Part shown: piece after piece, positions 6,203 through 18,593 of the stretch
Layout of the letters: each line of letters begins with the position of its first letter
How positions within the stretch are numbered: the stretch's first letter is position 1
NCBI GenBank assembly: GCA_017084465.1
Contig: CP070896.1
Coordinates: forward strand, 2,857,501-2,921,500
Reading direction: 5' to 3'
Origin: Lacrimispora xylanisolvens
GTDB taxonomy: Bacteria > Bacillota > Clostridia > Lachnospirales > Lachnospiraceae
DNA: 64,000 nt
The notes under the pieces: generated by a model
Told to the model about the DNA's origin: nothing
Database searches by the model: none
The model's input: the letters and a program-made list of their open reading frames with translations, nothing else
Translations under genes and position numbers: made by a program

Positions 6203-7203
6203 TTATTTTGCTGCCAGTCTTCTGGCTTTTGCTTCCATACGGGATCTTGTTACATCAATGAATACGGCTGCGATGATAACCATACCAATTACAATGTATT
6301 GAACAGAACTTGATGTATTAAGGAGTGTCAGTCCGTTACGAATGGTGGAGATCATCAGTGCACCGATTAAAGTTCCCCAAATGGTTCCTTTGCCTCCCAT
6401 GAACGAAGCCCCTCCTATAATACAGGCTGCAATGGCATCTGTGTCATAAGGAGATATAGCTGCAGATGGATTTGCCACTGCGGAACGTCCTACGATCACC
6501 AGGCCGGCTATTGCACACATGAAGCCGGATAAGCTGTAGACAAAGATCAGGACGTTGTCGGAATTGATGCCTGACAGACGGGCAGCTTCCGGATTACCGC
6601 CTACACAGTAAATCATTCTGCCCAGAGCGGTTTTGTTTAAAAGAAATGGTATACACCATATATTAGTAAAAGAACTACAAAGCATAGAGGAATTCCGGAA
6701 AATCCGTCCAGTGACTTAAATAAGTTGCAGGAGCCTAAAAATGTAACGCCTGCGGGGAAGTCGGAAATCGTTTTGGTTGATACCACTAATAGGGCAATAC
6801 CGCAAAGTACGTTCTTCATACCCAGAGTTGATACAAAGGGATGAGGGAGATGCATTTTCGTCAACAGAAGTCCATTTAAAAAGCCAACACAAAGTCCTGT
6901 GATAATGCAGGCAAGTATGAGGATAAATGGATTGGTTATTCCCAGTGAATTCTTGAGCATACCCATTACACAGGCGCACAATATGGCATTTGCGCCTACA
7001 GAAAGGTCAATGCCTGCAGTAATCAGTACAACCAGCATTGCAGCGGATATCAGGCCGTTAACGGCCGTCTGCCGCAGGATATTCATCATGTTATTCATTG
7101 TAAGAAATTTGTCTGTTGCTACTGACAGGATCATAAACAACAGGATCAGAGCCAACAGCGGAGCTGCCTTACTGACTATGTCTTTCATTTGTTTTGTTTT
7201 CAT
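6203..7203 (-). CDS. Sugar ABC transporter permease, RbsC/MglC type (one frameshift)
   Basis: A membrane permease of the ribose/galactose class (BPD_transp_2), about 330 residues with many hydrophobic segments. AGIDLSVGA near residue 65 and ACIIGGASFMGGKGTIWGT near the C-terminus are characteristic. The frame breaks at the AAAA run at 6639-6642 (plus-strand numbering); one extra A restores YGVYHFFLNKTALGRMIY. Its ATG overlaps the stop of the ATPase gene by 4 nt, which shows translational coupling. It is the last gene of a binding protein-ATPase-permease operon. The sugar is not determined. Confidence 0.9.
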
Positions 7204-8699
7204 TGTATAGCACCTCCCCAGGCAGCTTTCATAATTGTCTCCTGATTCAGTAAGTCACTGTCTCGTGAAAGCTCACCCATGATTTTTCCTTCTCTCATTA
7301 TAATGACTCTGTCACTCATTCCGATAATTTCAGGCAGCTCAGAGGAAATCATTATTACACATTTTCCATCTTTAATTAAGTTGTTCATGATGTTATAAAC
7401 TTCAACTTTTGCGCCTACATCAATGCCTCTGGTGGGTTCATCAAAGATATAGATATCTGCATTGGTATTAATCCATTTGCCGATTACTACTTTCTGCTGA
7501 TTTCCGCCAGAGAGCTGTCCCACTGCTTCCTTTGAATCTGATATTTTGATTTTTAAACCGTCTACATTATCTCCGGTTAACTGGTCAATGTGTTTCTCAT
7601 CCAGAAAGAGTCCTTTTTTGCATTTTTTCATGGAACTGAGAATGAGATTGGTACGTACAGACTGGGTTAGAACAAGGCCCTGGCCTTTCCGGTCCTCTGT
7701 TAAAAATGCGATGCCTTGTCGGATTGCATCCTTTGGTGTTTTAATTGTGGCAGGTTTACCATTGATATAGATATTTCCTGAATCGTGGCCGTCAGCACCG
7801 AATATAGCGCGGAATGTTTCTGTACGGCCAGCGCCCACCAGGCCGGCAAAACCGAGTATTTCTCCGTAATTGGCATGAAAACTCACATCTTTTAAAAGCC
7901 CGGTTGAATTCAGATGCTCTACTCTTAAGGCCTCTTTCCCTCTGGTGGTCTCTATCTTTGGATACTGGTTATCCAGAGTTCTTCCTACCATGGCAGAAAT
8001 CAGAGAGTCATTGTCCATCTCCGAAATATCTTTTGTCAGAATATGCTCCCCATCTCTCATAACGGTTACGCGATCGCATAATTCGAAGAGTTCTTCCAGT
8101 TTGTGGGATACAAACAGGATGGAGATTCCTTTTTCCTTTAGAGAACGGACTGTCTTCATTAATTGGGCGACCTCTTTTTCTCCAAGACTGGAAGTCGGCT
8201 CATCCATAATGATCAGCTTTGCATCAATTAAAACAGCTTTTGCTATCTCAACCATCTGTTGTATTCCCATGCCATAGGAACCACATTCTTTCTTTACATC
8301 AATATCCTGTCCCAGTGACAGCATTACCTCATGAGCCATCTCATGCATCTTCTCATATTCCAGGAGCGGGCTGTTCTTCTTTTTCAGCGCTTTATTAATA
8401 AATATATTATCTGTGACTGACAGAAGGCGTACAATATTTAGTTCCTGGTAAACACAGGCGATTCCATGAGCTGCAGCCTCTCTGGGATTTTTAAAGGAGA
8501 CCTCTTTCCCATCCATAATGAGAGTACCTTCTTCCGGGGTATACACCCCGGTCAGTACTTTAATCAGCGTGGATTTACCGGCACCATTTTCACCGATCAG
8601 CCCATGAATTTCGCCTGGTTTTATTTCCAGTGACATATTGCGCAGAGCCACAACTCCTGGGAAGCGTTTCGTCACATCTTTCAGTTCCATTAAGCTCAT
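7200..8699 (-). CDS. Sugar ABC transporter ATP-binding protein, RbsA/MglA type
   Basis: A 499-residue tandem ATPase energising sugar import. The N-terminal domain has Walker A GENGAGKST (residues 36-44) and Walker B LIIMDEPTSSL, with a less canonical signature before QQMVEIAKA. The C-terminal domain has LVGAGRTE in place of Walker A, an intact LSGGNQQKVVIGKW signature and IYIFDEPTRGIDVG. This asymmetry is normal for the CUT2 class. The frame is intact. It lies between the binding protein gene (34 nt upstream) and the permease (4-nt overlap). Confidence 0.94.
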   Translation of the reverse strand: MSLMELKDVTKRFPGVVALRNMSLEIKPGEIHGLIGENGAGKSTLIKVLTGVYTPEEGTLIMDGKEVSFKNPREAAAHGIACVYQELNIVRLLSVTDNIFINKALKKKNSPLLEYEKMHEMAHEVMLSLGQDIDVKKECGSYGMGIQQMVEIAKAVLIDAKLIIMDEPTSSLGEKEVAQLMKTVRSLKEKGISILFVSHKLEELFELCDRVTVMRDGEHILTKDISEMDNDSLISAMVGRTLDNQYPKIETTRGKEALRVEHLNSTGLLKDVSFHANYGEILGFAGLVGAGRTETFRAIFGADGHDSGNIYINGKPATIKTPKDAIRQGIAFLTEDRKGQGLVLTQSVRTNLILSSMKKCKKGLFLDEKHIDQLTGDNVDGLKIKISDSKEAVGQLSGGNQQKVVIGKWINTNADIYIFDEPTRGIDVGAKVEVYNIMNNLIKDGKCVIMISSELPEIIGMSDRVIIMREGKIMGELSRDSDLLNQETIMKAAWGGAIQ

Positions 8700-8733
8700 A
8701 GCAGTTCAACCCTTTCTGTTTCTTACAAGCAGG

Positions 8734-9748
8734 TTATTTTAAATAGCCTTTCAGTTTTTCTAAGTAGTCTTTTGCATTTTCGGAAGAAATAACTTCACAG
8801 CCTGTATCGACAAAGGATTTCACAGTCTCGCCTTTTACAGCTTTCACTGCAGACTCTACTGCTTTATATCCCATGGTGTAAGCTGACTGAGCGCAGGTCG
8901 CAGAAATGGTTCCGTCGATGATATTCTGAACACCACTCTGATTACCATCAAATCCTACAATCACTACATCTTTTAATCCGCTTTGTTTGCAGGCGGTTGC
9001 AGCTCCTGCAGCAGTATCATCGTTATGACATAAGACGATCTGAATGTTACCGCTCTGGGCAGTTATCATGTTTTCCATAACATTGGCAGCCGTGTCAGGG
9101 TTAGACTGGGCATACTGTACGGAAACTACGTCTATTCCGTTTTCTTTCATGGCTCTTTCATAACCGGCCTGTCTGGCATCGCTGGTCGCGTTTCCTTCAA
9201 CACCGCCTATGATAACTGCTTTTGCTCCCTTACCTGCTTTTTCTGCGGCATATAATCCGCCCTGATAAGCTGCTTTGTCATTACCGGTACCCACAAAGGA
9301 TATTTTTTTCCGGGAATTTCAGCATCGGTATCAACGGTTATGATTGGTATTTTTTTACATCACCAATTACGCTGGCAACTGATTCTGACTGGAGAGGGGA
9401 AATAACAAATGCATCAATGCCTCCTGCCAGCATGGTTTCAATCATATTGTTCTGCTCGTCATAAGATGTTTCTGAAGCAGGTCCCTGAAGGTCAACTTTT
9501 ACACCTAAATCCTTTGCAGCAGCATTGACTCCAGCTGCTACGTAGCTCCAGTATTCGCTGGAAAGCGTTTTTAAGATTACACCGACTTTAATATCTCCCG
9601 TAGTGGAAGCGGCGGTGGAAGCGGGGGCAGCAGCGGCAGTGGTAGCTTCACTGCTGGCTGGCGTTGCATCCGCTTTTTTTCCTGCGCAGCCGGTAGCTGA
9701 TACCAGTAAGGCAGAAATTAACATCATGGATAAGATTCTTTTTTTCAT
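8734..9748 (-). CDS. Sugar ABC transporter substrate-binding lipoprotein, RbsB type (two frameshifts)
   Basis: A periplasmic-binding-protein-like (Peripla_BP_4) lipoprotein. The signal peptide ends in a lipobox (SATGC, Cys21) and is followed by an Ala/Thr/Ser-rich linker to about residue 50. The ATG at 9748 has aaggag in front. Two A8 runs appear as A7 (plus-strand T runs at 9350-9356 and 9303-9309). Restoring both gives VKKIPIITVDTDAEIPGKK and then ISFVGTGNDKAAYQGG. The C-terminal half has the family pattern VIVGFDGNQSGVQNIIDG. First gene of the importer operon. Confidence 0.9.
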
Positions 9749-9772
9749 GTTTAATCTCCTTTCACAACACGT

Positions 9773-9800
9773 ATTATACAAGTTGCATAAAATGATTCAA
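9773..9800 (-). promoter_or_regulatory. Promoter of the RbsB-RbsA-RbsC-like operon
   Basis: On the minus strand, TTGAAT and TATAAT are separated by 16 nt, and the -10 box lies 24 nt upstream of the binding-protein ATG. This is a good sigma-A match. Confidence 0.65.
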
Positions 9801-9897
9801 TGTAATTACTATTTTATAGACAAAAACACAATAACACAATGGTATAATTTGCGCTGTAAGGGGGTGGATGTTTCGATATCTTATTTTATATCAGATG

Positions 9898-9927
9898 AAA
9901 AAAAGCCCGGCAGAGATAGGCTTTTTT
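9898..9927 (-). terminator. Terminator behind the regulatory operon
   Basis: On the minus strand aaaaaagcc pairs with ggcttttttt and ends in a T-run. It lies about 30 nt beyond the stop of the degenerate ABC protein and separates this transcript from the sugar importer promoter. Confidence 0.75.
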
Positions 9928-9956
9928 CAAAGAGAGGCGGTGGGAAATGGAAGCAG

Positions 9957-11309
9957 TTAATCTGTAAACAAACAGCCATTTTCGACGGTCAGATGCTTTC
10001 CTTTCATGGTATATGCTTCTGTCATATGATTTGTAATGAGAATTACAGCAATTCCGGATTTTAGTGCTTCATCAAGCAGGTTGATGGTCAGAGAGCGCAG
10101 CTGAAAATCAATGGATGAAAACGGTTTAATACAGACCAGTACTTTAGGACGTAGGAAAATCCATCTGTAATAGATCAGCTTCAGCTTGCATTCGTCACTG
10201 ACATTCTCCGCTTTCTCTCCCAGTTCCTTCTCTGTAAAAACCCCTTCTGTCATATTTTTAACCAGCTTCCGATAAGACTTTTTTAACTGAATGCCAGCTT
10301 TTTTTTGCATGAACATAAAAATAAAGTTATCCATAATTGTCATATCTGTAAATATCATCTCATCTAAAGATCTTGACTCAATGAATACAATTTCGTTTAA
10401 AACAGAGCGGAAAATCGTATCTGACCGGTTGGATATAATTGCTTTTCCGGTTATGGAACGGCAGCCTTCCAGCATGGAAATGGCGTGACTGCATTCTGCA
10501 GAATTTGTGTCCAGTATATTTAACAGTTCTCCTCTCTTTATATAACGGGTTAAGGAGATTACGGGATTCAGTTTTAAATCCTGAAGATCCTGGGTATCTG
10601 AAATGGTTTGAGCATTTACTGACTGAGTAAAGTGATGAGGGGTGAAACGGCTTAAGGATCTTCCGTTTTTTATAATGGTAATTTCATCAGCGTGTTTCCA
10701 TAAATCGAAATCGCTGCCTGAAACGTAGAGAAAGGTCATTCCTTTTTCTTTTAATTTGGCGGATAGTTCAAAGAAACCGCTCATCTCATCTTCTGATAAA
10801 AACATTTCCAGATCTGTAATAACTGCCAGCTTTCGTCCGGAAATATAGGCACGAAGGAGCTCAATCTGCTTTTGCTTTCCGTAATCCAGAGTATGAGCTT
10901 TGGAAGACATGGGCAGAGACAGATCCAGTTCTTTTAAAAGGTCGGGCGCCAGCCGGCAAAGTGAAGCTGCCCGGTTCCACCAGAATACCTTACTGTTAGC
11001 AACAAAAATATTTTCTTCCACACTTAACTGGGAAAAGATGCCACGGTTTTTCCCTATAAAAGCGGTTTGTTTTTGAATCTGGTCCTGAGAACGGTAGGAA
11101 TTTATCTTTTCTCCATTCCAGTAGATCCAGCCTGAATCTGGTTTTAATGAGCCATTTAGAAGTCTTAAAAAATTCTGCTTTTCAATTAAATTAGGGATAA
11201 TGGCACAGCAAATCTGCCCCTGAAAGGCTCGCAGACATACTCCTTTTAGTAAAATCTGATTTCCCTCAGAACAGTAGATATTTTCGTAGCGCAATACTTC
11301 CTGTTTCAT
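9957..11309 (-). CDS. Degenerate tandem ABC ATPase-like protein, likely regulatory
   Basis: 450 residues with the two-domain layout of a CUT2 sugar ATPase, but the nucleotide-binding motifs are gone. Where Walker A should be, residues 37-48 read IIPNLIEKQNFL with no GxxGxGKST. The first signature reads LDYGKQKQIELLRAY, and Walker B reads VITDLEMFL instead of a DEPT form. In the second half, LDTNSAECSHA replaces Walker A, VSDECKLKLIYYRWI replaces the LSGG signature, and VLVCIKPFSSID replaces Walker B. ATP hydrolysis is therefore unlikely. Its ATG overlaps the histidine kinase stop by 4 nt. I infer a signalling role with the kinase, not transport. The frame is intact, so the degeneration is not a base-calling artefact. 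Confidence 0.8.
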   Translation of the reverse strand: MKQEVLRYENIYCSEGNQILLKGVCLRAFQGQICCAIIPNLIEKQNFLRLLNGSLKPDSGWIYWNGEKINSYRSQDQIQKQTAFIGKNRGIFSQLSVEENIFVANSKVFWWNRAASLCRLAPDLLKELDLSLPMSSKAHTLDYGKQKQIELLRAYISGRKLAVITDLEMFLSEDEMSGFFELSAKLKEKGMTFLYVSGSDFDLWKHADEITIIKNGRSLSRFTPHHFTQSVNAQTISDTQDLQDLKLNPVISLTRYIKRGELLNILDTNSAECSHAISMLEGCRSITGKAIISNRSDTIFRSVLNEIVFIESRSLDEMIFTDMTIMDNFIFMFMQKKAGIQLKKSYRKLVKNMTEGVFTEKELGEKAENVSDECKLKLIYYRWIFLRPKVLVCIKPFSSIDFQLRSLTINLLDEALKSGIAVILITNHMTEAYTMKGKHLTVENGCLFTD

Positions 11310-12340
11310 TTTTCAAGCCTCTCTGCGTCATCAAGTATGTAAGGAAGGGTGAGGGATACTTCAGTTCCGGCTCCTGGGAAACTAAATAAATGAATGCCAT
11401 ATTCCTCTCCCATAAGTAGACGTATTCTGGAATTCACGTTATTCAGTGCGATCCCGCCTTTTTTATCTTCTCTCACAGAACCAGTGTCGCCTGCCATATG
11501 AAGAAGTGTATCGTTTAAATGTTCGACTGTAGCTTCGTCTATGCCAATACCGTCATCTGAGACAGAAATATAAAGTATGGTATCACTGTGATCAATGTCT
11601 ATGATCACCTTTCCACCCTCAACTTTTGGCTCTAGTCCATGCTTAATGGCATTTTCAACGATTGGCTGGAGAGTAAGTTTTGGAATTCTGGCTTTTAAAA
11701 GGTTTTCCTCCTCTGGCAGCAGGATATCCAGATATAACTTTTCCTCGAATCGGTATTTTTGAATTATAAAATAGTTTTTTACATTGGAGAGCTCTTCTTC
11801 CAGTGTTGTAAGACTTTCCATATTAGAAGTAGTATAACGGAAAAATACCGCCAGTGCTTCTGCAATTTTTCCAATCTCAGGAACGCCCGCCATAATGGCA
11901 TCCGAGCGGATGGATTCCAGCACGTTATAAAGAAAATGAGGATTGATCTGATTTTGTAATGCCAGATAACGGGCCTGCTGTTTCGCATTTTCAATCATCT
12001 TATCCTTATCCAGGCTGGTATGGATTCCTGATAACAAATCATCGAAGCTGGGTGATATTCCTTCCAGGCTTTTAAAAAGCTCAGTGAATATAATGCCGTT
12101 GTTAAAGAGCTCTGCCTGCTTTTCCATAAAACGCAGTGGTTCCCATATTTTCGCTTTTCCCCATAGGAGAATTAAAAATAATCCAAGACCCATAAATAGA
12201 ACCAGGAGCACTGCAAAGTAGGATTCCTGACGGTGATCCGCCATCAGAATCAGGAAAAGCATAAGGAGCATAAGAATACTCCAGGATATCAAAGTACCGA
12301 TCCATATGACAAACCGGTTTTTTAACCATTGCTTTTTCAA
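11306..12340 (-). CDS. Sensor histidine kinase, YesM/LytS type
   Basis: A 344-residue membrane kinase. Two hydrophobic segments (about residues 10-34 and 42-60) are joined by a very short loop, so it has almost no extracellular sensor domain. The phosphorylated His is His135 in QINPHFLYN (HisKA_7TM/His_kinase family). The ATP-binding domain shows the N box QPIVENAIKHGLEP and the G box DDGIGID. It sits 15 nt after the response regulator gene and overlaps the degenerate ABC gene, so the three form one operon. The lack of a sensor loop suggests that the signal comes from a partner protein, possibly the sugar-binding protein or the ABC-like protein. Confidence 0.92.
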   Translation of the reverse strand: MKKQWLKNRFVIWIGTLISWSILMLLMLFLILMADHRQESYFAVLLVLFMGLGLFLILLWGKAKIWEPLRFMEKQAELFNNGIIFTELFKSLEGISPSFDDLLSGIHTSLDKDKMIENAKQQARYLALQNQINPHFLYNVLESIRSDAIMAGVPEIGKIAEALAVFFRYTTSNMESLTTLEEELSNVKNYFIIQKYRFEEKLYLDILLPEEENLLKARIPKLTLQPIVENAIKHGLEPKVEGGKVIIDIDHSDTILYISVSDDGIGIDEATVEHLNDTLLHMAGDTGSVREDKKGGIALNNVNSRIRLLMGEEYGIHLFSFPGAGTEVSLTLPYILDDAERLEK

Positions 12341-12355
12341 TTAGATTCCTCCCAG

Positions 12356-14002
12356 CTATCGGTTGGTAAACAATTTCCTGTATTCATTGGGCGAAACGCC
12401 AAGGGTCTTTTTAAACTGTCTGGTAAAAAACTTGATATCATTATATCCGGCCAGTTCAGCAACCTCACTGATGCTTCTTTCTTTTTCGGTCAGCAGCTTT
12501 TTGGCAGTGTCGATCCGCACCATTTGTATATACTCGGTTAAGGTTTTTCCTGTTTCTTTTTTAAAGAGAGAGGAAAAATAGGTATAGCTGAATCCTGTAT
12601 TTTTGGCCAGCTCTTCCAGCTTAATATTAATTCCCTTATTTTCTTCTATAAAATGTTTGGCATAGATAACAGGCTTTATTTCTCTGTTTTTCAAATGGTC
12701 CAGCACATTCATAAGTGTTTCACAAAGAGTATCTTCCAATAGCCGGAACGTCTGCTCCAGGCTTGTACAGTGTTCATACATTTCAGAAAACCAGGATACT
12801 TTTTCGTGTTCGTCCAAAGAGGAATCCAGCTGCTTGAATCCATTGATATAATAATTAAGAAGCAGCAGGAGATTTTTCTTTACCTGTAAACAGGAGGTTA
12901 TATCTTCTGCCTTCATAATATGCTTTGCAGCTTCCACGCATTTTTTAATCTCTTCCATATCAAAGGCATCCGGCCTGTCTTCCAAAAGCTTTATGATTCT
13001 GGCGTCCATGGAGGAGGAGAGACCCGCGTTTATAAAAGGTGGTTTTATCTCTGAGACTGTATTTAAGCCAGTTAGAAAACGGTTACCGATGGCAATACGG
13101 CTTTCCTTAATCCGTTTAATCAGCTGGATGCAGCTATCTGCCAGTTCGCTGACGACAGCATTAAAATAGAGTCTGGGGAATAAATCCTGAAGACTGAGGA
13201 CACGCTCCTTTATGTGGTTTATGGATTCCAGCAGCTCTTTCCGGTCAAGATCATCAGAAAATAGAAGAAAGAATATTCCTTCTTCTGTTACTTCAGAGAT
13301 CCAGATCCAGTCGTCGTGGGAGGAAAACTCCACTTCAGCTATTTCAAGGGTTTTCTCTGTCAGCAGCTGGTAGCTTTCTTCCGTAAATTCTCTGTAACTG
13401 ATATTAGGTTTTACTGCAATACACCTTGCTGAATTCTTCATAATATCAGCAGCATTTAGTTTTTCAACTTCCTGCAGTATGTTCTCCTCCTGTTCGTTTA
13501 ACTGCTTTTGTAAAACAGTTTTTAAAAACAGGTGTTTAAATGTACCGGTATAATTCTTTATGGTTTCTTCAAGTTGAAGGCGCGAGGATTGTACGGATAT
13601 CTGCTCCTGGGTTTCCTTAACCAGTTTTTTTAATGTACGGGTTAAATCTTCCTGGTTGATGGGTTTTAGCAGATAATCTCTTACACCAAACCGCATTCCC
13701 TGCTGGGCATACTGAAAGTCTTTATAACCGCTGATGATGATGCATTTGAGAATTTCATTCTGCATTTTTGCTTCTTCAATCAGACGAAGACCATCCATTC
13801 CAGGCATTCGGATATCTGTAAGTAGAATATCCGGTTTTTTTTCATTAATCAGCTGCAGAGCAGTTAAACCGTCGTATGCGGTTCCAAGCAGCCTGATGCC
13901 AATTTCATCCCAATTAACTAAATATTCAATGAGCTTACAGATCTTTTTTTCATCGTCTGCAATTACCATTCCTAAAATTGCAATCATCTCCCGTTTTGTC
14001 AT
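12356..14002 (-). CDS. Response regulator, YesN/AraC type
   Basis: 548 residues. An N-terminal receiver has the acidic pair in VIADDEK and the phosphoacceptor Asp63 in LLTDIRMPGMDG, with Lys in YLLKPIN. A long middle region of unknown fold leads to a C-terminal AraC double helix-turn-helix (FSYTYFSSLFKKETG and SISEVAELAGYNDIKFFTRQFKK). It would be phosphorylated by the adjacent YesM-like kinase and would activate carbohydrate genes, probably the adjacent importer. The start is uncertain. The first ATG at 14002 has only a weak ribosome site, and an internal ATG two codons before the VIADDE strand is also possible. Confidence 0.9.
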   Translation of the reverse strand: MTKREMIAILGMVIADDEKKICKLIEYLVNWDEIGIRLLGTAYDGLTALQLINEKKPDILLTDIRMPGMDGLRLIEEAKMQNEILKCIIISGYKDFQYAQQGMRFGVRDYLLKPINQEDLTRTLKKLVKETQEQISVQSSRLQLEETIKNYTGTFKHLFLKTVLQKQLNEQEENILQEVEKLNAADIMKNSARCIAVKPNISYREFTEESYQLLTEKTLEIAEVEFSSHDDWIWISEVTEEGIFFLLFSDDLDRKELLESINHIKERVLSLQDLFPRLYFNAVVSELADSCIQLIKRIKESRIAIGNRFLTGLNTVSEIKPPFINAGLSSSMDARIIKLLEDRPDAFDMEEIKKCVEAAKHIMKAEDITSCLQVKKNLLLLLNYYINGFKQLDSSLDEHEKVSWFSEMYEHCTSLEQTFRLLEDTLCETLMNVLDHLKNREIKPVIYAKHFIEENKGINIKLEELAKNTGFSYTYFSSLFKKETGKTLTEYIQMVRIDTAKKLLTEKERSISEVAELAGYNDIKFFTRQFKKTLGVSPNEYRKLFTNR

Positions 14003-14327: not shown

Positions 14328-16508
14328 ATGAATGCTATGGAAGCCCGTAAGAGCAGATTCTTTAAAAATATGTTTTTGTCCTACTGTCTGATCATTATAT
14401 TAAGCTTTCTCATTTACTCGGTTACAGTCATTTATGAGGCTGCAAAAGTGAAAGAAAATCAGGCAGTTAAATATTATGAAACAAAGGCCCAGGCATTTGC
14501 CAATGGGATGGATCAGCAAATTTACAGCGCACAGAATATCATAACAAATCTTAACAATTCCTCGTTGATTAATAAATTGTATATGACTGTACAGATGCAA
14601 AGCCCGGTTGATTCCTATCTTCTGTATCAGGTGTTAAATGACATCCGCTATCAGAAAACAGCTGGAGACGATTTTAATATCTCAGATGTTGTCCTGATGA
14701 TGAATAACTACAATAAGGTATATACCAGTGATGAGGTGATACATTTATCCGATCGCATTGATTTATCAGAATGGAAAACCGACCGTCTGGCAATTACAGA
14801 TTTAAATACCAGTTTAAATATGAATAACAGCCAGCTGACATTTTCAAAAAATATCTGATATACAGTGGGGCTTATCAATATGGATCCGGTTCACAGAGAG
14901 GTATTATCTGCGTTTTATTTGAAAATCAGAAGATAGAGGAGATGCTGAAAGCTGCATCCGGTGAGGCCCGGGGGTATGCAGTTTACTATAATGGAAAACC
15001 GGTTATTAAAGAGGGGATCGAAGATGGAAGAAGTTTTAAACAGACCTCACAGGTAAGTAGTGCCATCTCTTATGAGATTTTTGCGGATTATAATAAGTTT
15101 GGTTTTGAGTTTTCTGACTTAGGATCGATTGCATTGGTATTTGGATTTTTGATTTGTGTGGGATATTTAATTCTGGCTTACTTTTTTACAAACCGGTATT
15201 CGTCCCCATTTGAGAAAATCAGGCTTTTAGTGGGAAAAGACAGCAAAGAGGGAAAAAACGAAGCAGAGAAAATTGTCTCCGGTGTAGTTGATCTTCTTGG
15301 AGAGCGTAATGGGTATATGCAGCAGGTTCATAACATGTCGCCCTATGCCAGCCAGGGAATCCTTCACAGTCTTGTTCTTGGGAGTGACGGGGAATCTGGT
15401 AATAAAGAATTTCTGACTGATTTTGTTCAGTTAAAACGAGTATTTTTTTTGGCAGCAATGGTTGATTTATATTTTGGAGAGAAATGGAGTAAGGATGAGG
15501 CAAAGAAAGCGGTAAAAGTGATTTCGCTGCTGGCAGAACAGGAATCAGATGAGGAATTTAAGATCCTGTCTTATAAAAAAGGATTCTTTCCATGTCTATC
15601 TTATATTTAACAGCAATAACGGAGAGCGTCTGGAAGATAAGCTTTACGAGTTTTTTGATAAGATGAAAAAGACCCTGGATCCCAGGTGCATGGTGACCGT
15701 TGGAGCAGATGAGGTAAAAGAAGAACTGGAAGAGATTTCTGTTTCCTGTGACAATGCAATGCTGGCTTTGGAGAAAATCCTATGGGAGGGGAGAGGGTCA
15801 ATCTATTTCCATGATCCACAGTCGGACTGCTCTATGAATTATTATTTTCCTAAGGATGGAGTAAAACAGCTGACAAAAGGGATGAAGGACAGGGACAGGA
15901 CGTCTATTAGTCATTTCTTTGAGGAAATTGAGAAGAAGAACCAGATGGAGTTTGATAATTCTGTTTATGCAGGAAAGCTGCTGTTAAGTGAACTATATGT
16001 TACCGTTGCAAAAGCAATGCAGGCGGTATGGGATCAGTGCGGCATTCCTTTAAGAAGAGTGGATGTCTGCCCCTCTTACCGTACCATGGATGAGGTCATT
16101 GAATATTATAGTAATCTCATAGAAGGACTTTTTATTGAAGTGGACCAATCTGAGGAATTAAGAGAGGAATATTTCCAGAATGAATTGGAATTAATTGAGT
16201 ATATCAATAAAAATGACAAAAATCCGGACCTTTCCCTTACTCAGATAGCGAATCATTTTTCGGTAAGCAGTAAATATGTGACTGCTTTGGTGAAAAAGCG
16301 GTTTGGCATGACCTATTTAAAATATGTACAGGAACGAAGAATTTCTTATGCCATTGATCTTTTAAAGAATTCGTCTCTTCCCCTTGAGAAAATAGCGGAA
16401 GAATGTGGCTACACCAATATGCTGACATTCAGAAGAAATTTTAAAGCGATTATGGCATGTAACCCCAGTGACTTCCGGGGAGAGAAAACTACAGAAGAAG
16501 AGTCGTAA
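14328..16508 (+). CDS. Membrane-bound AraC family regulator (two frameshifts)
   Basis: About 725 residues when restored. A transmembrane segment near residues 15-33 and another after FSDLGSIALVFGFL enclose an extracytoplasmic sensor domain of about 230 residues. The C-terminus carries an AraC helix-turn-helix pair (LSLTQIANHFSVSSKYVTAL and PLEKIAEECGYTNMLTFRR). This architecture typifies one-component regulators next to CUT1 importers in Paenibacillus and Clostridia. Breaks are at the A6 run 14846-14851 (one A missing) and the A6 run 15575-15580 (one A too many). It lies upstream of the importer that it probably controls. Confidence 0.88.
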
Positions 16509-16540
16509 TAAATCAACAAATTAAAGGGCTATAAAACCAG

Positions 16541-16597
16541 GAATGAATCAAAAAAGGATAGTAAATACTACTTCCTTTTTTGATTCATTCATTTTTT
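16541..16597 (+). terminator. Strong intrinsic terminator
   Basis: A perfect 18-bp inverted repeat (gaatgaatcaaaaaagga / tccttttttgattcattc) is followed by a T6 run, 33 nt after the AraC-type gene. Confidence 0.9.
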
Positions 16598-16694
16598 GTG
16601 GTCAAAATGCCCTTGGAAAAAGTGAAACTAGCAAAAAAGTAGGGCAAATTATACAATTTACTCACAACTCATCAAATGGAAGGGGACAAAAGTA

Positions 16695-17672
16695 ATGAAT
16701 GTGCTTGCCAGGAAAAAAGCAAAGCCAGAGATAAAGAAACTCTCGAAAGAAGAAAAAAAACTGCTGTTTCAAAAAAATGTGAAGAGAGATAAATATCTGC
16801 TTCTAATGTTTGCACCAGTTTTGATCTATTATCTGATATTCGCCTATTTACCTATGACAGGTCTTGTAATGGCGTTTACACAATTTAAGGCGGGCAGCGG
16901 AATGATGGGCCTTTATACAGGTACCTTTGTGGGGCTGAAATGGTTTATTCAGTTTTTTAACTCACCATATGCGTTCCGATTAATTCGAAATACCTTTTTG
17001 CTATCATTTTATTCGTTAATATTTGGGTTTCCGATTCCTATTATTTTTGCACTGTGTATTACCCAGATAAAAAACAAGTATTTACAGAAAGGGACCCAGA
17101 TCATTACATATTTACCTTATTTTATCTCTACGGTAGTTATTTGCGGAATGATAACAAACTTTTTATCACCGTCCAGCGGAATTATTAACCAGATGATTGT
17201 TAAGGCAGGGGGCACCGCAATAAACTTCCTGGGTGAGCCTAAATGGTTCCGGGCGATTTATGTTATTTCTGGTTCCTGGCAGAGCTTTGGATTTAATTCC
17301 ATTATCTTTGTAGCTGCAATTATGGGCGTTGCACCGGAACTTTATGAAGCAATGAAGGTGGATGGTGCCAGCAAGGTTCAGACTATACGCTACCTGGTGC
17401 TGCCAAGTATTAAGCCAACCATCGTGCTTTTACTTATTATGTCACTGGGCAATCTCTTAAATGTGGGATTTGAAAAGGTTTATCTTCTTTATAATTCCGG
17501 AATCTATGATACCGCAGATGTAATCTCCACCTATGTTTACAGGCAGGGTATTGGCAGTCAGAATTACAGCTATGCAACAGCAGTGGGACTGTTTAATTCT
17601 CTGATTGCTTTTGTCATTGTGTTTACGGCAAACAGGCTTAGCAGAAAACTGACAGAAACATCGGTATGGTAA
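16695..17672 (+). CDS. CUT1 sugar ABC transporter permease, LplB type
   Basis: 325 residues with six predicted membrane segments after a basic cytoplasmic N-terminus rich in Lys. The EAA loop that contacts the ATPase is EAMKVDGASKVQTIRYLVLP. The opening YLPMTGLVMAFTQFK is typical of the LplB/ParQ-like oligosaccharide permeases. The ATG at 16695 follows ggaagggg. It precedes the partner permease by 10 nt. No ATPase gene is present; such systems usually share one MsmK-type ATPase encoded elsewhere. Confidence 0.93.
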   Translation: MNVLARKKAKPEIKKLSKEEKKLLFQKNVKRDKYLLLMFAPVLIYYLIFAYLPMTGLVMAFTQFKAGSGMMGLYTGTFVGLKWFIQFFNSPYAFRLIRNTFLLSFYSLIFGFPIPIIFALCITQIKNKYLQKGTQIITYLPYFISTVVICGMITNFLSPSSGIINQMIVKAGGTAINFLGEPKWFRAIYVISGSWQSFGFNSIIFVAAIMGVAPELYEAMKVDGASKVQTIRYLVLPSIKPTIVLLLIMSLGNLLNVGFEKVYLLYNSGIYDTADVISTYVYRQGIGSQNYSYATAVGLFNSLIAFVIVFTANRLSRKLTETSVW

Positions 17673-17682
17673 GGAGGAAGAG

Positions 17683-18593
17683 ATGAATCAGAAAAGTACG
17701 TGGATAGAGTTTAAAAATGAATGTATCACAGATAAGCTGTTTGATATCTGCATCTGGGTACTGATTGCGGCAGCAGTCTGTATTACCCTGTATCCCTTTA
17801 TATATGTTGTAAGCATTTCCTTAAGCTCAGGTGAAGCGGTGAACAAGGGATTAATTACCCTGTTACCGGTGGATGTGAATCTGGATACGTATCGGATGGT
17901 TATGTCTTATAAGGATCTATGGATTTCTTATGGAAATACATTTTATTATACCGTTATGGGAACCTTTTTAAATATCGTATTTACCTGTCTGGCAGCTTAT
18001 CCGCTTTCCAGAAAACGGTTTTTCTTAAGAAAGAAAATGAATTTCCTACTGGCATTTACCATGTATTTTTCCGGTGGACTCATACCAAGTTATCTGGTTG
18101 TAACGGGGCTTGGTTTGTATAACAGCAGACTGGCCATGATACTTCCGGTTCTGGTCAGTGCTTATAACGTTATGATCTGCCGTTCTGCGTTTGAAGGTAT
18201 TGCTGAGGAATTATTTGAAAATGCGTATCTTGAGGGAGCAAATGACCTTCAGATTTTGGTAAAATAGCAATCCCACTGATAAAACCGACGTTAGCTGTTT
18301 TAACTCTGTATTATGCGGTAGCACGGTATAATGATTTCTTTAGTGCTCTGCTTTATATTGGAAAGCAGAATCTTCAGCCATTGCAGTTGTTTCTTCGAAG
18401 AATTCTTTTAATGGCATCTGCAGAGATTATGCAGTCTTCGGGAAATGCAACGGCCGCCAGTGCAGCAGCTCAGTCTACCATTCAGATCAGATACGTCTGC
18501 ATCGTTTTATCTATGGTGCCAATCGTATGTCTTACTCCCTTTATACAGAAGTATCTGGTGAAAGGTACCATGCTGGGAGCAGTAAAAGGATAA
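17683..18593 (+). CDS. CUT1 sugar ABC transporter permease, YtcP type (one frameshift)
   Basis: The second membrane component, about 303 residues with six hydrophobic segments. YPFIYVVSISLSSGEAV near the N-terminus and the EAA loop ENAYLEGANDLQ place it with YtcP/AraQ permeases. The frame breaks in the T4 run at 18254-18257; adding a T gives FGKIAIPLIKPTLAVLTLYY and continues to a TAA at 18591. It starts 10 nt after the LplB-type gene with aaggagg in front. Confidence 0.91.

Follow-up and report, generated by a model that had tools for sequence, protein, structure and literature searches.

A catalytically inactive CUT2 transporter ATPase homologue that probably passes a signal to a sensorless YesM-type histidine kinase

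Within a 64,000-nucleotide stretch of the Lacrimispora xylanisolvens genome (contig CP070896.1, positions 2,857,501 to 2,921,500; hereafter the window), a YesN-type response regulator and a YesM-type histidine kinase are encoded together with a homologue of the two-lobed ATPases of CUT2 sugar transporters that has lost its catalytic motifs and is here called pABC. This dead transporter ATPase probably passes the kinase its signal, perhaps concerning the adjoining sugar transporter. Most simply, pABC would be the input domain of the kinase on a separate chain: it is a non-catalytic ATPase under selection, gene-linked to a kinase that has no input domain, and it usually stands beside a sugar importer that has an ATPase of its own. 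The pABC family accompanies kinases without a sensor of their own, and it is conserved under purifying selection and is not a decayed gene. The link between pABC and the kinase is well supported by gene linkage.

Results

The regulator, kinase and pABC genes of the window

The genes and sites that form the core of the locus are the following.

12356..14002, minus strand: YesN-type regulator with a receiver domain and an AraC-type helix-turn-helix (HTH) domain, 548 aa as listed (Pfam Response_reg 6.6e-24, HTH_18 3.9e-22)
11306..12340, minus strand: YesM-type histidine kinase, 344 aa, two transmembrane helices, QINPHF at about residue 128 (Pfam His_kinase PF06580 and HATPase_c)
12146..12316, minus strand: two predicted transmembrane segments of the kinase (residues 9-36 and 38-65) with hardly any loop between them (hydropathy script)
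9957..11309, minus strand: pABC, 450-aa two-lobed CUT2 ATPase homologue without catalytic motifs (Pfam ABC_tran in the N lobe, 1e-10)
11172..11198, minus strand: lost N-lobe Walker A position of pABC, IPNLIEKQN, residues 38-46 (alignment)
10113..10142, minus strand: second-lobe Walker B position of pABC, VLVCIKPFSS, residues 390-399, with the replacement motif PxVxVCIxPF (alignment)

The original prediction, made from the sequence alone, had described a YesN-like regulator and a YesM-like kinase with scarcely any extracellular part; its coordinates were right, and Pfam and hydropathy agree with it. It had also given a 4-nt overlap of the kinase and ABC-like genes, which is confirmed: the pABC start sits within the kinase gene. 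The true start of the regulator may be an internal ATG near 13969.

Homology of pABC to CUT2 ATPases and loss of the catalytic motifs

The window pABC aligns along its whole length with two-lobed CUT2 ATPases, and CUT2 ATPase models (xylose, ribose and the like) match all 30 members of the family alignment A2. Its best NCBIfam model scores 85.6 bits against an equivalog cut-off of 699. Two ABC lobes in one chain are seen in the alignments, and both lobes are predicted as ABC domains in structure models; no CUT2 ATPase is named among the structure matches listed for those models. At the motif positions of the N lobe there are IPNLIEKQN (Walker A), LDYGKQK (signature) and LAVITDLEM (Walker B), and at those of the second lobe DTNSAECSH, VSDECKLK and VLVCIKPFSS, with neither an LSGGNQQ signature nor a DEPTRG Walker B. 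The alignments thus bear out the earlier description of a 450-residue, two-lobed CUT2-like protein with no usable Walker A, signature or Walker B in either half.

To place this loss in the family, 62 pABC sequences, defined as those scoring higher with the pABC profile, were compared with 56 live CUT2 ATPases, drawn both from these loci and from control loci; eight near-copy loci and one ATPase frame truncated by the end of its stretch (L064; L numbers denote loci other than the window) were left out. No pABC keeps a complete set of catalytic motifs on inspection of the alignments, and a script pattern requiring both Walker A and Walker B is matched by 0/70 pABC. The Walker A Lys is kept in 27/62, the following Ser/Thr in 16/62 and both in 11/62; the Walker B Glu is present in 11/62 and the H-loop His in 6/62. 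The second-lobe Walker B Asp (D420) is found in 55/56 live ATPases, which were selected for Walker A and B so that invariance at those sites is a selection effect, and is mostly Ile or Val in the 62 pABC. On whether homologues with intact Walker motifs occur in equivalent loci, the earlier expectation of an inactive family therefore stands insofar as none has all the motifs, and falls short insofar as the 11 retain the N-lobe Lys and Ser/Thr. A genuine ATPase with unusual motifs is rejected for the window protein; across the family the loss is graded. L091 comes closest to a full N-lobe set, keeping Lys, Ser and DE and having lost the first Walker A Gly and the signature.

Scaffold residues are retained in pABC (N98 in 57/62, N351 in 61/62, P422 in 59/62 and D427 in 57/62), and the family has marks of its own: E4 and R7 lie near the N terminus, and the second Walker B is commonly replaced by PxVxVCIxPF.

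Two subgroups deserve separate mention. The pABC of L073, L074, L109, L075 and L079 have an intact-looking N-lobe Walker A (GLSGAGKS/T, GLSGSGKT, GNNHSGKS or GVNYSGKS) and no Walker B or signature, and on these motifs are possibly ATP-binding, non-hydrolysing intermediates. The pABC of L103, L105, L106 and L107, from four genera, form a divergent subgroup in which the first Walker B position reads EDE(F/L)E and the second L(F/L)EPF; closely similar CUT2 ATPases lie beside them.

The kinase and pABC genes are paired in every locus counted

Fifty-seven stretches around profile or orthologue matches were fetched, six of which hold live ATPases only (L076, L077, L078, L080, L101 and L102). The linkage count covers the window and L044-L100, 54 pABC in all, with the near-copies L039-L043 uncounted; L075 and L079 were matched through a live ATPase, and a pABC was found beside that ATPase. 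Conservation of the kinase-ABC gene pair had been put forward as a point on which the original prediction could fail, and the pair is kept in 54/54 loci, the kinase being directly upstream on the same strand in every one. The regulator precedes the kinase in 53/54, the exception (L060) ending at a contig end, and the gap between kinase and pABC is at most 23 nt in 51/54. Of the 34 loci whose next labelled transporter gene begins less than about 500 nt away, 30 have a gap of at least 55 nt before it. The kinase frame in L055 is just 175 aa long. A CUT2 ATPase and permease adjoin pABC in 43/54 loci by a strict rule and 44 by a looser one.

pABC accompanies short kinases

There are two hydrophobic segments in the window kinase (9-36 and 38-65), and an extracellular domain would not fit, as judged by a hydropathy script and not a dedicated transmembrane predictor. 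Neither dCache nor HAMP was found by Pfam in this kinase or in 8/8 other pABC-linked kinases scanned; both were found in 5/5 long YesM-type kinases, one dCache being below cut-off. In most pABC-linked kinases two hydrophobic segments follow each other closely. Two of these kinases (L115, 4587-5366, and L135, 4881-5651) show no hydrophobic segment anywhere between the stop codons that bound their frames, and are apparently soluble, and two more (L111 and L113) have only one.

A first sample took 150 of 413 PF06580 matches in 16 genomes chosen for holding pABC; 18 frames were shorter than 420 aa, six of them beside pABC already seen and twelve fetched for their length (a weak ABC match beside L109 was already listed), and 17/18 have a pABC. 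By comparison, 0/19 loci of long kinases, taken in order down the same sample, have one (Fisher p 1e-9). A complete sample of all 125 PF06580 matches in ten of the 16 genomes contains 22 frames below 420 aa, 20 of which adjoin a pABC; the two short kinases without pABC, L110 and L136, carry PocR sensor domains. Among 89 PF06580 matches in 13 genomes without a clear pABC match, only three are below 420 aa; none has a pABC, and they look differently built, one with a weak 7TM match. A short frame in the window genome, L114, is a long kinase split over two frames, and broken frames exclude that genome from the short-kinase count.

Long YesM-type kinases (L116-L119, L123-L125, L128 and L130) frequently have CUT2 parts and one or two genes for binding proteins as neighbours. 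These perhaps represent a second, binding-protein-type mode of importer control.

Phylogeny, covariation and selection

A tree of the 62 pABC and 56 live ATPases, made by a quick method, is parted into the two groups by a single branch (SH-aLRT 100). L075 and L079, which have an N-lobe Walker A, join nearest the live ATPases (support 93), and L073, L074 and L109, which also have one, come with L104, L108 and L111 at the next, weak fork (66). With all 62 pABC on one side of the tree, repeated loss in separate operons is disfavoured; one origin is likely, not proven, as long branches meet (L104, L108, L112, L113, L115 and others) and the deepest forks are weak.

Distance matrices, compared by rank correlation in 40 of 59 loci, give 0.876 for pABC and kinase, 0.858 for pABC and regulator, 0.564 for pABC and live ATPase and 0.378 for pABC and permease. 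The partial rank correlation between pABC and ATPase given the kinase is 0.28, versus 0.04 between kinase and ATPase given pABC.

Over seven close loci, median omega is lowest for the live ATPase (0.041), followed by the kinase (0.046), the regulator (0.061) and pABC (about 0.075). An orthologue of the window pABC, 50-98% identical and free of internal stops, is present in 18/25 genomes of the genus, the window genome included; in the other 7/25 there is none at E<=1e-25. The closest named relatives are from Lacrimispora, besides metagenome-assembled genomes under other labels. Matches of at least 249 bits to profile A1 occur in 24/250 Lachnospiraceae genera, and the stretches fetched there hold pABC. 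Profile A2 finds members of at least 350 bits in other families of the order, class and phylum (our codes f5, f17, f24, f34, f54, f121 and f126), the next matches listed scoring 330 bits or less. Below these values the scores are mixed (about 220-250 bits for A1 and up to 330 for A2): L076, L077, L078, L080, L101 and L102 are genuine ATPases and L074 is a pABC. The genome counts are lower bounds, since 4 to 6 candidates were scored per genome and since divergent pABC below the profile threshold were found through kinase length. There are up to five pABC copies per genome (G063).

Transcription units and the adjoining transporter

On the minus strand the genes follow one another in the order regulator, kinase, pABC, binding protein, CUT2 ATPase and permease, and the features beyond pABC are these.

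9898..9928, minus strand: terminator-like hairpin directly past the pABC stop (alignment and folding)
9749..9880, minus strand: strongly conserved region ahead of the transporter operon, containing TTGAAT-16-TATAAT (alignment and site scan)
8734..9748, minus strand: CUT2 solute-binding protein, frame whole in relatives and interrupted in the window assembly (about 9294 to 9360)
7200..8699, minus strand: CUT2 ATPase of the adjoining transporter, intact (GENGAGKST, DEPTS, LSGGNQQK, DEPTRG)
6203..7203, minus strand: CUT2 permease, frame whole in relatives and interrupted in the window assembly (about 6637 to 6685)

Because the adjoining transporter owns an intact ATPase, pABC is a second, non-catalytic copy. 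The hairpin, followed by a T run, is present in the window and 7 aligned relatives; the window hairpin, the only one folded, has an energy of -10.6 kcal/mol (z -2.3), a value reached by 2 of 200 shuffles, and it is missing from the list of a terminator scan whose loop limit was 8. From the hairpin to the start of the binding protein, about 130 bases are strongly conserved and include the sigma-70-like site, a kind of site of which the scan overall found no excess over shuffles. Together, the hairpin and the conserved region with its promoter-like site point to two probable transcription units, one holding the kinase and pABC and the other the transporter. The conserved region (9749..9880) probably doubles as a predicted binding site for the regulator.

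Frames are broken at 8734-9781 and 6203-7203 in the window genome, a single contig of 5.63 Mb, and likewise in the binding protein, permease and ATPase of L066 (about 1.83 Mb), and are whole in L039-L045 and L081; this looks like assembly indel errors rather than gene loss (completeness 89.5%). L066 also holds, at 6995-9506, a second module of regulator, kinase and pABC in the same genome, beside another CUT2 set, with a pABC 23-24% identical to that of the window. On the plus strand of the window, a divergent neighbour (14328-18267) opens with a broken gene for a large AraC-type regulator, whose relatives encode about 726 aa, and what follows appears by eye to be a CUT1-type sugar importer.

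Discussion

We rate it an even call that the regulator, kinase and pABC form a three-component signalling module in which a dead CUT2 ATPase became the input subunit of a sensorless, HAMP-less YesM-type kinase by way of docking on a CUT2 permease. According to this model, a CUT2 sugar-transporter ATPase would have lost catalysis and turned into a kinase input subunit. Keeping its two-lobed nucleotide-binding-domain shape, pABC would dock on the cytoplasmic side of the CUT2 permease in alternation with the genuine ATPase, and would contact the kinase as well. The binding protein with its sugar would alter the permease conformation, pABC would shift and the kinase would be toggled; the phosphorylated regulator would then switch on the separately promoted operon of binding protein, ATPase and permease from a putative target promoter. 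What pABC signals is probably the state of a CUT2 permease, and its CUT2 descent and the retention of both lobes suggest that it may still fit one. The original prediction had supposed that the pseudo-ATPase could dock on the adjoining sugar permease, or on the kinase, and convert transport state or sugar binding into phosphorylation, a role that is plausible and that the present model sharpens. For the kinases of L115 and L135, which have no hydrophobic segment, only a partner could provide a tie to the membrane.

A number of observations weigh against this model. Neither a CUT2 ATPase nor a permease is found in 9/54 pABC loci, some of them at contig ends. CUT2 ATPase and permease genes also adjoin 8/19 long-kinase loci, where the stretches were smaller, so the neighbourhood alone proves little, and we have set it aside as proof of a permease link. 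The partial rank correlation between pABC and permease given the kinase is -0.02, and that between kinase and permease given pABC is 0.25. The whole-protein model of pABC has a predicted template modelling score (pTM) of 0.53. The retained Asn residues, which we take to lie near the permease contact, may be structural instead, and kinases without transmembrane helices fit a purely cytosolic sensor as well.

Such a cytosolic sensor is the strongest competitor, unlikely but to be taken seriously. Here the former nucleotide pocket of pABC would bind a sugar phosphate or other metabolite and relay this to the kinase without contacting the permease. That pABC covaries most tightly with kinase and regulator fits this scheme, as do the loci without CUT2 ATPase or permease, and the two pABC-linked kinases without a membrane segment strengthen it. 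Against it, the family has no pocket-like replacement motif throughout besides PxVxVCIxPF, and the two-lobed CUT2 layout, needless for a simple ligand sensor, is kept in all aligned members.

The kinase could instead read the permease directly through its transmembrane helices, as BceS does with BceB, leaving pABC as an assembly factor or brake. The two-helix kinase resembles intramembrane-sensing kinases, the kinase-permease partial correlation given above points the same way, and transmembrane contact together with throttling of the ATPase by the kinase is reported for BceAB-S (PMC10314905). Direct reading is nevertheless weakened by the kinases of L115 and L135, with no transmembrane segment, and of L111 and L113, with one only, and by the partial correlation with the ATPase, which is higher for pABC than for the kinase; we regard it as improbable. 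Still more doubtful is the idea that pABC competes for the permease, blocking transport by docking there, and plays no role in signalling. Its CUT2 homology and dead active sites would suit this; on the other side, pABC is encoded with the kinase, the hairpin cuts it off from the transporter genes, and its presence tracks kinase architecture. That pABC is a decaying pseudogene or sequencing artefact, as the broken adjoining frames might hint, is refuted by its conservation and has next to no probability, the frame being open in the window and the listed genus orthologues with no internal stops, omega being 0.075 and 62 members sharing one supported side of the tree.

A broader form of the model is put forward more tentatively. 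It holds that modules of this kind are a widespread three-component class, in which a dead ATPase is the sensor of a sensorless and sometimes anchorless kinase, swaps with a live ATPase on one permease and translates the conformation of that permease into phosphorylation, so that the importer would alternate between moving sugar and reporting on it.

Precedents exist for parts of this scheme. UhpC, a homologue of a transporter, is the receptor for the kinase UhpB and is a membrane carrier, whereas pABC would be a cytoplasmic protein resembling the ATPase of an ABC importer. In XylFII-LytSR, a binding-protein-coupled three-component system, clostridial sugar uptake is under the control of a kinase acting together with a protein derived from a transporter part. 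In CuaDSR of Ruminiclostridium cellulolyticum, another such system, a kinase controls sugar uptake with a transporter-derived protein, CuaD, which binds the extracellular domains of the kinase. Unlike CuaDSR, the kinase here has no extracellular domain with which to bind a solute-binding protein, and its third component should be cytoplasmic. The pair in the window shares the PF06580 kinase core and AraC-type regulator of the YesMN system, but not its extracellular dCache sensor and HAMP domain. With the CUT2 ATPases RbsA, XylG and MglA, pABC shares two lobes and full-length homology; it differs from them in having no full catalytic set in either lobe, in scoring far below the model cut-off and in being encoded with regulators.

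The closest parallel is BceRS-BceAB, in which a kinase without an extracellular sensor reads its transporter (PMC10314905, PMC7828314 and a 2025 review, PMC12189002), so coupling of this sort between kinase and transporter does exist. Like that system and other intramembrane-sensing modules, the present one combines a sensorless kinase with gene linkage to an ABC transporter, the transporter acting as sensor in those modules (PMC7828314 and PMC10314905). The BceS-like combination of two transmembrane helices, a very short loop and no sensor is found in the window kinase and not in those of L115, L135, L111 and L113. In BceRS-BceAB the active ATPase of the transporter itself and the permease signal, and the output is peptide-antibiotic resistance. 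The present module adds a separate, inactive ATPase; it has a PF06580-type kinase and an AraC-type regulator, and its linkage is to a CUT2 sugar importer and not to a BceAB-type transporter.

As had been supposed at the outset, the system appears to be undescribed: no account of a kinase partnered by an inactive CUT2 ATPase was found in the titles and abstracts listed on searching open-licence full texts (the top 7 to 15 titles each time), a search that stopped short of subscription journals and preprints, and the available part of a Clostridium phytofermentans evolution paper (PMC3899296) has nothing on such a protein. As far as the literature search reached, the module is a transporter-coupled two-component system with a third component not described before.

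Proteins of the pABC type match models named 'ABC transporter ATP-binding protein' and are easily taken for parts of a transporter, whereas their gene linkage marks them as parts of a signalling system. If the model is correct, the family would show a route from transporter ATPase to receptor subunit, and would explain how sensorless YesM-type kinases are supplied with a signal, giving a handle on sugar sensing in the Lachnospiraceae and their relatives. Signalling from an ABC transporter to a kinase would become testable through a separable, non-hydrolysing part.

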